Assembly (NCBI GenBank): GCA_021462855.1
Contig: JAJTXQ010000014.1
Coordinates: 230,042-294,041, forward strand
Direction: 5' to 3'
Source: Dehalococcoidia bacterium
GTDB lineage: Bacteria > Chloroflexota > Dehalococcoidia > DSTF01 > JACRBR01
Length of the DNA stretch: 64,000 bases
Both the position numbers and the translations under genes were made by a program. Position 1 is the stretch's first letter; every line of letters begins with the position of its first letter. Under the pieces are notes generated by a model, which was given only the letters and a program-made list of their open reading frames with translations, was not told the DNA's origin and made no database searches. Shown here piece after piece: positions 55,710 through 60,649 of this stretch.

Positions 55710-58700
55710 CTACGGGAGCGGCTCGGGGATGATGAGTTCGGCATCCGGGTACAGCGCGGCGATGCTGAACCAAAAGCCCTGCACCGCCACGACCGGTTCG
55801 AGCCGCTGGCCGGCGTCCGGCCCCTCGAGCGCGGCGCCGAAGAAGTCCCAGCGCGAAGATGTCGCGTCGTCGATGAACCCCTCCGGGACGTTCGCCGGGT
55901 TATCGAAGGCCCGGCCGCCATCCCGTGTACCGGCGAACGCGACTGCGCTGCCGACCATGCGCGAGTCCCACGGGCGCGCGCGCTCCAGCATCGACCGCAC
56001 GTTCCAGTCGAAGAACACGACGAGCGAGCGCCCGCCTGATTCGACTTCGAACGCGCGCAGACGCTTGTCCTTCGGGTCGGGGAACGGCACCGCGACCGGC
56101 CGCCCGCCACCCTCGATCAGCAGCACGCGCTGCATCGCCGGCAGGCGACCGTCGATGGCGGCGCGCGTGAACAGCGCCTTGCCGCCCGGCGTGTCGTAGC
56201 CGAGGTACGGGTTGCGGTCGTAGCGGCTGTCGGTGGTGAGCGCGCGCCCCTGCGGATACGACGAACGGAACGCCGCCCACGAGCTCACGGTGAACGTCGC
56301 CGGCGCGAGCCGCTGGCCGTTCAGCTCGCCGGCGATCGCCTCGCCGGTGGCCTGCTGCCACCATGTCTCGGTTTCGCGGTCGTAGATGATGGCGTTGCCG
56401 TGCCGCAGCAGCCCGCTCACCCCGAGCGTCAGCGTCCGCCCGCCGGGGTCGCGGCGGAACACGCGCGGCGTCGAGCCGATCGTGTCGTAGGACACCGCAA
56501 CCGGCACACCCGCGATGACGTCGTTGACCACGCCGTTCCACATCAGCACGCGCAGCGGATACGCGCGCCCGCCCTCCCCGTCATCGATCACCACGACGGG
56601 CTCGAAGTCCGACACGTCCGTCGCCGTGACCGGTGCGAACGTCGGGCTATCGATCGGTGCGAAGGCGTCTTTCGTCTGCCCCTGCACCACCTCGCCCAGG
56701 ACGGCGGCGTCCGGGTTCGTGCGCCAGTCGCCGGCGACGTCCTCCGGCCGCAGCCCGCGCGGCGTGTCGGTCGCAGGCACGAACGCGACCTTCGTCCCGC
56801 CGCTCTCGTCCACGGCGTAGCGGAAGTCGCTGCCATCGCCCGTCGCGCCGAGCTCCATCCGCTTCGAGATGGGCATCATCTCCGGCGACAGCGCCTCGCC
56901 GACGGCCACGCACCCGACGCCGCCGGTGAGCGGGTACGGCTGGTAGGCCATCGGCCCTTCCGCGCGCGAGATCTGCACCGGCTTCTCACTGCCCATGCCG
57001 AAGAACTTCCACAGTCCGTCGATCACTGGCTCCGGCGCCTGCGTGTACGTGATCGCGCGCAGCGGCGCCTCGCGACACGCCGGCCGCGTCAGCTCGCGCA
57101 CGATCACCGTCTCCGGCGTTGTCGGGCTGTGTTCCGCCGAGTACCCGAAGAACCGCTGCCCGTTGATGATGAACACGATCACGCCGAGCGCGACGGCGCC
57201 GCCGATCGTCAACGCCCACTCGGCCCGTTGCGCGCGTATCACGCGCCCGAGCGACGCCATCAGCCGGTCCGCCGCGATGCCCGCGAACGCCGCCATCGGC
57301 GGTAGCGCATAGTGCATGCGCGAGATCGACACGAAGTCGTACTCCGACATCAACCCGGCAACGGTCCCCGCGATGATCAGCCAGGCGATGAGCACGCGCG
57401 AGCCATACTCGTTGAGCCGCGCGAACGCGTATACCAGTCCCGCCATGGCGAACGTCACGCTGATGCCGTCCATGAGCGGGCCCGCGGTGTAATGGATGTT
57501 CGCCGGATTGAAGTTAAAGGAGAGGAAGGTGCGTCCCAGGCTTTCGTACATCCGCTCCATCAGCGGATCCTTCGTGACGGTGGCCGACCGGTTGAACATC
57601 TCGTCGATCACGAGCCAGCGGTCCGTAGCGAAGATCGGCAGCGCGAACATCACGAAGCCCGCGCCGACGACGGCGTAAGCGTCGAGCCGGAAATGGCGCC
57701 GTCCCATGAACAGCATCGCCAGCCCGACGATGCCGATCGCCGCGCGCGACGAGTAATACGTATAGAACCCCATGCCCGCGAACAGCCCGGCGGCGAAGAG
57801 CAGCGTGTAGTTCCCGCGCCGCATGCCCGCAACAGCGCACGCGAGCGCTGCGACCGTCGGGAAGAGCGTGAAGATGTTGTCGTAGCCCGTATGGGCGTAC
57901 GCAAACAGGTAGTGCGAGGCGGCGAGGAACAGTGTGCCGAAGATAGCGACGCGCGCACCCGACATCTCGCGCAGAAGCCAGTAGAACACCGGCAGCGTCA
58001 GCACGACCGCCACGACGGACGCCATCTTCCAGCCGAACAGGCTGTCGCCGAACACCCTCAACGACAGCGCCTGGTACGCCGAACTGAGGATCGGGTGCTG
58101 GTCGTACGGCCCCCGCTGGCTGAACCAGTTCAGCGGCTGCCCGTGGAGCACGCGCGAGGCGAAGTCATAGAACGCGCCCTCATCGCCGATCGCCGCGTAC
58201 CGCCACGTGTCGAGGTCGCGCGCGTTGATGCCGATGAAGATGCCGGCGAGCGCCAGCACGTACAGCGCCTCGAACGGCGCTGCCCGCGAGAAGCGCGGCA
58301 TCGCCAGCCGCCCGCGCCCGCGGTCGATGGCGAGAAACGCCGCCAGCGCGAGGGCGATCGAAAGGAAGAAGATCCAGCGATATGAGCCCTCGTAGTGGTC
58401 GTTGTAGAGGCGCAGGTTGAGCCAGCCCCACAGCACGAGCGGCACGCCGAGCAAGGCGTACAGCCGCCATGCCGCGCCCTTCGCGCCGAGATCGCGCCAC
58501 TGGCGGATCGACCAGGCGGCAGACGGCGGCACAACACGGGCGAGGATCAGCCCGCCGGCGACGAACAGCGGCAGCGCGAACTCCAGGCTGTTCCGCGCGC
58601 GGAACGTCCGGTCGAAGTAGCCGCCGAGGCGGCCGGTGAACGGGATGTCGAACGGCGCCGTCACCGCGTCCGCGTGGTACTGCGCGTACCCGACGACGGC

Positions 58701-58802
58701 GATCCCGGCGACGGCGAAGAGGAGCGCGCCCACGTGCGTCACGAAGGCGGGCAGCGCCGGCGCGCGGACCGCGAGGCGCTCCCGCAACTTCAGAACGGTC
58801 AT
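55710..58802 (-). CDS. Fusion: membrane glycosyltransferase (GT39/ArnT-like) with C-terminal DUF3179 domain
   Basis: A 1030-residue protein. The first part (about 1-620) is a polytopic GT-C-type glycosyltransferase: several N-terminal helices, then the acidic loop motif IGDEGAFYDFA (about 205-215) typical of polyprenol-sugar-dependent enzymes, and further helices. After an extracytoplasmic stretch comes a DUF3179 domain (about 700-1030): GRAYPLRVLMWNGVVNDV, VSGLLRHGNAIIYDRETETW, QQATGEAIAG, DRNPYLGYDT and a closing AFDNPANVPEGF/RLEPVVAVQGFWFS. Most DUF3179 proteins have a YCPLC motif after the GVPV strand; here it reads SYDTIGST, so the cysteines are lost. The ATG at 58802 is chosen from the first hydrophobic segment. 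A role in cell-surface glycosylation is likely; the DUF3179 role is unknown. Confidence 0.85.
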   Translation of the reverse strand: MTVLKLRERLAVRAPALPAFVTHVGALLFAVAGIAVVGYAQYHADAVTAPFDIPFTGRLGGYFDRTFRARNSLEFALPLFVAGGLILARVVPPSAAWSIRQWRDLGAKGAAWRLYALLGVPLVLWGWLNLRLYNDHYEGSYRWIFFLSIALALAAFLAIDRGRGRLAMPRFSRAAPFEALYVLALAGIFIGINARDLDTWRYAAIGDEGAFYDFASRVLHGQPLNWFSQRGPYDQHPILSSAYQALSLRVFGDSLFGWKMASVVAVVLTLPVFYWLLREMSGARVAIFGTLFLAASHYLFAYAHTGYDNIFTLFPTVAALACAVAGMRRGNYTLLFAAGLFAGMGFYTYYSSRAAIGIVGLAMLFMGRRHFRLDAYAVVGAGFVMFALPIFATDRWLVIDEMFNRSATVTKDPLMERMYESLGRTFLSFNFNPANIHYTAGPLMDGISVTFAMAGLVYAFARLNEYGSRVLIAWLIIAGTVAGLMSEYDFVSISRMHYALPPMAAFAGIAADRLMASLGRVIRAQRAEWALTIGGAVALGVIVFIINGQRFFGYSAEHSPTTPETVIVRELTRPACREAPLRAITYTQAPEPVIDGLWKFFGMGSEKPVQISRAEGPMAYQPYPLTGGVGCVAVGEALSPEMMPISKRMELGATGDGSDFRYAVDESGGTKVAFVPATDTPRGLRPEDVAGDWRTNPDAAVLGEVVQGQTKDAFAPIDSPTFAPVTATDVSDFEPVVVIDDGEGGRAYPLRVLMWNGVVNDVIAGVPVAVSYDTIGSTPRVFRRDPGGRTLTLGVSGLLRHGNAIIYDRETETWWQQATGEAIAGELNGQRLAPATFTVSSWAAFRSSYPQGRALTTDSRYDRNPYLGYDTPGGKALFTRAAIDGRLPAMQRVLLIEGGGRPVAVPFPDPKDKRLRAFEVESGGRSLVVFFDWNVRSMLERARPWDSRMVGSAVAFAGTRDGGRAFDNPANVPEGFIDDATSSRWDFFGAALEGPDAGQRLEPVVAVQGFWFSIAALYPDAELIIPEPLP

Positions 58803-58993: not shown

Positions 58994-60649
58994 ATGTCGA
59001 CAGCGCCGCGTACCAGCGCACTCCAGCGCCTCGCCGACCGCGCCGCGCGCGTCTCGCCCCTGGTCTACGAGGCGGCGTTCGTGCTCGCTGTCACCGCGGC
59101 CGCGCTGCTCCTTCGCACGTGGGACCTGGCGAACTATCCACCGGGATTCCACGGCGACGAGGGCCTGATGGGCCTCGACGCCCAGCGCGTCCTGAAGGAA
59201 GGGTGGATCGGGCCGTGGTTGCCGGCCACGGCGCTCGGTGTCCCGGCCGGCCCGGCGTACTGGACGGCGGCCGTCGTCCGGGCGCTCGGCGACACGCCGG
59301 AGAACGTGCGCTTCGCGCTCGCGCTGCTCGGGACCGCGACCGTGCCCATCGCGTACTTCGCGTTCCGCGCCATGTTCGGGCCGCGCGCGGCTGCGCTCGC
59401 CGCGATCTTCCTCGCCTTCTCGGCGTGGCACATCCACTTCAGCCGCATCGCCTACATCACCGGCTCGCTGCCGCTGATCGTGGTGGCGACGACGCTCGCG
59501 CTGTTCCTGGCGATCAAGCACGGGCGGTGGTGGCTCTTTCTCGTCGCCGGCATCTTCGCGGGACTGAGCGCGTACACATACCAGGCGTACCCGGTGTTCG
59601 TCGCGGCGCTCGGGGTGTTCGCCGCGTGGCTCGGCATCGCCCATTACTTCCCGCGACGGCTGCACCACTACGTGCGCGACATGGCCGCGGCGTTCGGCGG
59701 CTTCTACTTTGCTGCGCTGTCGATGATCAACTACGTGCGCGATCACGAGAACTTCCTCGACACGACGCAACGGCGCAACTCGCTGCGCGAGACGCCGCAG
59801 TGGAAGGAGGCCGACGGCGTCGGCGACAAGTACCGCGTGATCCGCGACCGCGCGCAAGACGCCTTCGGCGCGCTCACGGACACGCCGCGCCTGGACGGCG
59901 TCGACGCCACCGGCGTGGGGCACATGTTCGGCGAGATCACGCTGCTGCTGCTCGCGGTCGGCGTCCTCATCGCGCTATGGAACGTGCGGCGGCTGCCGTA
60001 CGCGTACCTGTTGATCATGCTCGCCGTCCTTCCCGCCGCGGCGGTCATCACCGTCACCGGCGAGTTTCGGCGGATGATCGCGTTCTCGCCGTTCCTCGCC
60101 GTGTTCATGGCGCTGCCGCTCGAGCGCGCGTGGCGCGCCGGCGACGCGCGCACCGGCTGGGGGCGCGCCGCGACGTACGCCGCGATCGCCGCCATCGTCG
60201 CGTGGGTCGGCTGGCGCAATGTCGACTACTACTTCAGCGAGCTCACCACGTCGCAGGAGGCGGACTATGTCTTTGCGACGGAGCTTGCGAGCGCGTCGCG
60301 GTTCATCGATGAGCGGCAGCCGGACAAGGTGGTGCTGTTCTCCGCGCGGTGGGACTACGGCTACCCGACGCGCCTGTACCTCGCGCCCGGCATCCCCGGC
60401 GAGGATCGCTCGCGCGAGCACCGCCGGCGCCCTGATGCGAACACGCCGCCCGACCCGGGCGCGCCGTACGGGCCGCCCGACCCGTTGGCCGCCGATCCGG
60501 CGCAGGACACCCTGTTCGTGTTCATCGGCGCGAACTACATGGCGTTGGCGCCGCTCGTGCAGGCACGCTACCAGGGGACCACGGTGTACATCGGCGAACG
60601 CCACGGCCGCACGCTGTTCAGCGCGGCGCTGGTGCCGCGGCAGCGCTGA
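58994..60649 (+). CDS. Membrane glycosyltransferase (GT39/GT83, ArnT-like)
   Basis: A 551-residue polytopic GT-C glycosyltransferase. After the first helix comes the motif YPPGFHGDEGLMGLDAQRV, whose acidic residues are the expected catalytic and metal site in the first outside loop. About ten more helices follow, then a soluble C-terminal domain. The acceptor could be a protein, lipid or glycan. GGAGG lies 7 bases before the ATG. It is divergent from the glycosyltransferase-DUF3179 fusion with a 191-base gap, and ends one base from the convergent AAA ATPase gene. Confidence 0.88.
   Translation: MSTAPRTSALQRLADRAARVSPLVYEAAFVLAVTAAALLLRTWDLANYPPGFHGDEGLMGLDAQRVLKEGWIGPWLPATALGVPAGPAYWTAAVVRALGDTPENVRFALALLGTATVPIAYFAFRAMFGPRAAALAAIFLAFSAWHIHFSRIAYITGSLPLIVVATTLALFLAIKHGRWWLFLVAGIFAGLSAYTYQAYPVFVAALGVFAAWLGIAHYFPRRLHHYVRDMAAAFGGFYFAALSMINYVRDHENFLDTTQRRNSLRETPQWKEADGVGDKYRVIRDRAQDAFGALTDTPRLDGVDATGVGHMFGEITLLLLAVGVLIALWNVRRLPYAYLLIMLAVLPAAAVITVTGEFRRMIAFSPFLAVFMALPLERAWRAGDARTGWGRAATYAAIAAIVAWVGWRNVDYYFSELTTSQEADYVFATELASASRFIDERQPDKVVLFSARWDYGYPTRLYLAPGIPGEDRSREHRRRPDANTPPDPGAPYGPPDPLAADPAQDTLFVFIGANYMALAPLVQARYQGTTVYIGERHGRTLFSAALVPRQR

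Follow-up and report, generated by a model that had tools for sequence, protein, structure and literature searches.

A GT-C glycosyltransferase joined to a DUF3179 domain without its His and CxxC residues in two genera of Dehalococcoidia

The fusion gene, its parts and its occurrence

The window, the whole 64,000-nucleotide stretch of a Dehalococcoidia genome that was analyzed, carries on its reverse strand one uninterrupted open reading frame of 1030 codons (55710–58802(-); ATG at 58802, stop at 55710), and its start codon follows GAGG at a distance of a few bases. Pfam analysis of the 1030-aa product identified PMT_2 (PF13231) at residues 235–386 (E 1.4e-11; 45.3 bits against a gathering cut-off of 26.1) and DUF3179 (PF11376) at residues 711–1020 (E 6e-65; 220 bits against a cut-off of 27), the latter match spanning positions 1–291 of the 292 in the profile. 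A complete GT-C (PMT_2) glycosyltransferase and a complete DUF3179 are therefore confirmed to be joined in one protein, as the original prediction had claimed. The glycosyltransferase part (56760–58802(-), residues about 1–681) was delimited by PMT_2, the end point of unfused homologs, and hydropathy; it is followed by a linker (56673–56759(-), residues about 682–710) and by the DUF3179 domain (55743–56672(-), residues 711–1020), which consists of two repeats and was delimited by Pfam, its internal duplication, and a structural model. Across the junction, GC at codon positions 1, 2, and 3 was 0.72, 0.49, and 0.93, and the coding signature was unchanged on either side. The domain is the sole DUF3179 of its 3.0 Mb genome. 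In the window, the fusion gene adjoins lipA/lipB and another GT-C gene (a second PMT_2 glycosyltransferase, 58994–60649(+), in divergent orientation).

Nine hydrophobic peaks were found in the fusion protein, and its glycosyltransferase part comprises a transmembrane region extending to about residue 550 and then a small soluble tail. The motif G206-D207-E208 (GDE) is present, and all nine aligned homologs have GDE or GDD; in the first large extracytoplasmic loop, D207/E208 presumably occupy the place where GT-C enzymes usually have their catalytic acidic motif. Since this motif is kept, the glycosyltransferase part is probably active. Unfused homologs in three genomes (G137, G180, and G222), with 35–37% identity over about 650 residues, stop at about window residue 681, just before the linker and DUF3179, so a whole DUF3179 has been added behind a whole glycosyltransferase. 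In another genome (G021), a related glycosyltransferase has NHL repeats at the same C-terminal end and a neighboring one has PA14 and NHL, suggesting that C-terminal accessory domains are more widespread among such enzymes. Both belong to a run of three neighboring GT-C genes at this locus (L121, 2877–12248). A sequence search against solved structures returned no match for either the glycosyltransferase or the DUF3179 part.

Among 18 genomes of the order, one from another genus of the same family (G051) was found to encode a matching two-domain protein (L116, 7620–10817, 1065 aa), in which Pfam likewise identified PMT_2 and DUF3179. The two proteins share 46% identity over residues 18–1027 in a single frame, linker included (34% identity over the linker), and the domain search proposed with the original prediction thus yielded a second case of the architecture. 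When the full fusion protein was used as the query (E 1e-30) against 393 genomes of the class and 400 of the phylum, the full-length matches were the window and G051 proteins only, with the rest matching the glycosyltransferase or the DUF3179 part; the combination of GT-C and DUF3179 appears rare. It is absent from the other genomes of the family, one of which (G191) has a separate canonical DUF3179. No conserved gene neighborhood was found for the fusion gene in the window or the G051 genome, the flanking genes in G051 being unrelated to those in the window. Long-frame DUF3179 proteins were also considered as hidden fusions and were rejected: in 20 regions, mostly those with the longest frames, no DUF3179 frame showed more than two hydrophobic peaks, and no further polytopic fusion was seen. 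The literature searched, whose coverage was partial, contained no account of this fusion. Both parts belong to known families, and the fusion is not a new kind of system.

The duplicated DUF3179 domain and its lost site

With the fusion proteins left out, a profile of the N-terminal half of DUF3179 aligned with one of the C-terminal half at a probability of 99.9% (E 2.3e-30), and by this profile comparison the domain is an internal duplication. In the window protein, repeat 1 spans 56223–56672(-) (residues about 711–860) and repeat 2 spans 55737–56165(-) (residues about 880–1022). Across 98 DUF3179 domains from other genomes, a site formed by His and CxxC or UxxC occurs in repeat 1 only. Repeat 2 naturally lacks it in every case, and its matching stretch is often YDxxSxS-like; repeat 1 of the fusion, reading YDTIGST, is thus similar to this non-catalytic form.

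Site residues were counted in the 97 other domains that have residues at these positions, revealing His756 in 96, Cys or Sec at 773 in 95 (Cys in 90, an in-frame TGA (Sec) in 5), and Cys776 in 95. In the window protein, YDTIG (residues 772–776) lies at the (Y/F)CPLC position of relatives, with DTIG (residues 773–776, 56475–56486(-)) replacing C/U-P-L-C, and WNG (residues 755–757) stands in place of WHE, with Asn at residue 756 (56535–56537(-)). Residues 756, 773, and 776 are thus N, D, and G in the window protein, and they are R, D, and A in the G051 fusion. The predicted loss of both cysteines of the CPLC motif is correct, but His756, also lost, had been missed, as had the two-repeat build with the site in repeat 1 only; the further claim that any redox or metal role would be gone is well supported by this conservation pattern at the level of sequence. 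The 98 other domains share 31 columns with a conservation of 90% or more. The window protein retains 25 of these and the G051 protein 23, with 22 retained by the two alike; only five are altered in both fusion proteins, three of them being His756, Cys773, and Cys776 (chance about 0.002, for a comparison picked after the fact). In the fused DUF3179, fold residues are retained and the likely active residues are gone.

DUF3179 has been listed among the selenoprotein families, its motif being UxxC/T (PMC9312934, PMC13188914), which points to a redox role for the canonical site. Five loci of the same class (L031, L086, L125, L126, and L131) have TGA, in frame, where the first Cys codon of CxxC would stand and likely encode selenoproteins. 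Outside the fusion, loss of the site is rare, and the many cysteine-free DUF3179 proteins that would have spoken against the original prediction were not found: there is one clear standalone case in which His and both Cys have been lost independently (L135, 1462–2742, G248), together with scattered partial losses, including a fragmentary domain from which both cysteines are absent (L146, G361) and a few further domains with one or two site changes. An Anaerolineales genome carries three consecutive DUF3179 genes (L033, 5836–10057).

In a DUF3179 tree built without the site columns, the fused domains of the window and G051 were sisters (SH-aLRT 99) nested within canonical DUF3179 domains, and their nearest neighbor was the Sec-containing standalone protein of L086 (YUPLC), so that loss of the site is the derived state.

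Predicted fold and comparison with Rieske domains

AlphaFold2, run with 19 sequences, modeled the window DUF3179 domain with a pLDDT of 85.9 and a pTM of 0.88, and a canonical repeat 1 alone with a pLDDT of 88.8 and a pTM of 0.86. Structure prediction, suggested earlier as a check, thus returned a folded domain, and its matches to Rieske-type structures were weak. In VIA-align, all 50 rows among the matches listed were Rieske-type for both models, with best Z values of 8.2 (window domain) and 7.9 (canonical repeat 1), where the tool cautions that Z below 8 may indicate a common arrangement; the superposition took in almost the entire Rieske domain (92 of about 103 residues), with rmsd 2.5–3.5. 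Foldseek comparison with Rieske-type structures gave E-values of 0.04–0.07 for both models. On these models a Rieske-like fold of the DUF3179 repeats is likely, with both repeats predicted to adopt it and residues 742–842 forming the Rieske-like portion of repeat 1. Together, the duplication and the Rieske-like model would constitute a first structural hypothesis for DUF3179. The modeled domain also resembled two uncharacterized giant-virus proteins in BFVD, A0A1V0SD44 of Indivirus ILV1 (Foldseek E 1.6e-8) and A0A1V0SF28 of Hokovirus HKV1 (E 0.012).

The C-x-H and C-x-x-H loops of the Rieske cluster are absent from the window and canonical DUF3179 domains. The canonical site has the spacing His-x16-Cys-x2-Cys, and the Rieske motif of 2qpz contains His-x16-Cys-x2-His. 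Despite this equal spacing, identity of the two sites was rejected: with model residues 45–145 aligned on 2qpz 1–96, the canonical His/CxxC falls near residues 16–36 of 2qpz, away from its cluster loops, and aligning the Rieske set to repeat 2 by profile also puts the sites apart. The repeat 1 profile gave no significant alignment to the Rieske set (probability 0.5%), and nothing relevant to a link between Rieske domains and selenoproteins was found in the literature searched.

Proposed role and relation to known systems

We lean toward the view that the fusion is an intact GT-C enzyme with an extracytoplasmic, non-redox DUF3179 accessory module, which most likely binds or positions a glycan or acceptor. 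The enzyme would be a putative polyprenyl-phosphate-sugar-dependent GT-C glycosyltransferase of the cytoplasmic membrane, which gained a whole DUF3179 at its presumably extracytoplasmic C-terminus. Canonical DUF3179 is normally a stand-alone protein that is exported, in many cases as a lipoprotein, and has His and CxxC (or Sec-xx-C) in its first repeat; in the fusion, the site has been lost and the fold kept, which would leave a non-catalytic module that binds or positions the glycan or acceptor near the glycosyltransferase active site, as the MIR domain does in eukaryotic protein O-mannosyltransferases (PMTs). A lipobox-like N-terminus occurs in 44 of 107 other DUF3179 proteins, indicating that the domain belongs outside, and soluble C-terminal parts of GT-C enzymes lie outside; hydropathy and this analogy suggest that the C-terminus of the fusion is also outside the membrane. 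The retained GDE motif, the lipobox pattern, and the equal conservation of the two parts between the window and G051 (46% identity for DUF3179, 49% for the glycosyltransferase core) favor a non-redox accessory module. The MIR domains of PMTs bind mannosylated peptide and influence processivity (PMC7759382); judged by this analogy, binding of a glycan or acceptor would be the most economical role, and the binding role on the cell surface suggested in the original prediction would be of this kind. In a bolder version, to which we give rather little credence, DUF3179 would be a tandem-duplicated Rieske-like fold whose His and Cys/Sec-xx-Cys site has been relocated; in this lineage a glycosyltransferase would have taken it up, the site would have been removed, and what was a redox domain would now recognize glycans or acceptors as an acceptor-binding module. 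Counting against binding, Rieske-like folds are not, to our knowledge, carbohydrate-binding modules, and neither genome shows a conserved neighborhood around the gene.

The main rival to glycan or acceptor binding, a serious if unlikely one, is that the fused DUF3179 is mainly a structural or protein-protein docking element, for example one that ties the glycosyltransferase to a partner or the wall, and takes no part in acceptor choice. The combination of kept fold residues and lost active residues fits docking equally well, nothing specific speaks against it, and both readings accord with the presence of surface-type domains at the C-terminus of related glycosyltransferases. Continued enzymatic activity or metal binding through other residues of the domain is improbable: Asp773, common to both fusion proteins, would be a candidate, but all three normal site residues are missing in both, the other two replacements differ between them (N/R and G/A), and Asp is also common at the matching place of the site-less repeat 2, so that it may simply be the repeat's non-catalytic form. 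Less probable again is a relic, in which a neutral fusion left the second domain to decay. The lost site and the fused branches of 0.6 and 1.0, longer than most relatives (median 0.3), would agree with decay, but two genera retain the whole domain at 46% identity with intact fold residues, the window domain is modeled with high confidence, and pN (0.38) is well below pS (0.60), although with pS near saturation the selection argument rests mostly on the protein identity. Judged from this coding-sequence comparison, the DUF3179 part is shown to be under purifying selection. An assembly or frame error joining two genes, conceivable in a genome fragmented into 76 contigs and considered by the original prediction for the region 56600–56900, is excluded because the independently assembled G051 genome has the same single-frame fusion with a conserved linker.

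The fusion is a clear natural example of a presumed redox domain that has given up its site but not its fold in union with a membrane glycosyltransferase. It also provides a lead on where the uncharacterized family DUF3179 works: the place would be outside the membrane and, in this lineage if not elsewhere, close to glycan assembly.

Among known systems, the protein resembles GT-C/PMT_2 (PF13231) enzymes in its identity to the unfused homologs, its GDE/GDD motif, and the shared end of the glycosyltransferase, whereas those homologs end there or carry NHL repeats and the fusion continues into DUF3179. Compared with DUF3179 (PF11376), it has the full two-repeat domain at 37–43% identity and far above the Pfam cut-off, but it is joined to a GT-C enzyme and its repeat 1 lacks His and both Cys/Sec; at the sequence level, the fused domain is a member of the family by homology and not by the presumed redox or metal activity. 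A likeness to Rieske [2Fe-2S] domains would lie in the predicted repeat fold (Z about 8); DUF3179 differs from these domains in having no cluster loops and in placing the canonical His/CxxC elsewhere in chain order. Like eukaryotic PMTs with a luminal MIR domain, the fusion would pair its GT-C part with a beta-rich accessory domain on the extracytoplasmic side; MIR, however, is a beta-trefoil within a loop, whereas DUF3179 is C-terminal and of another fold.
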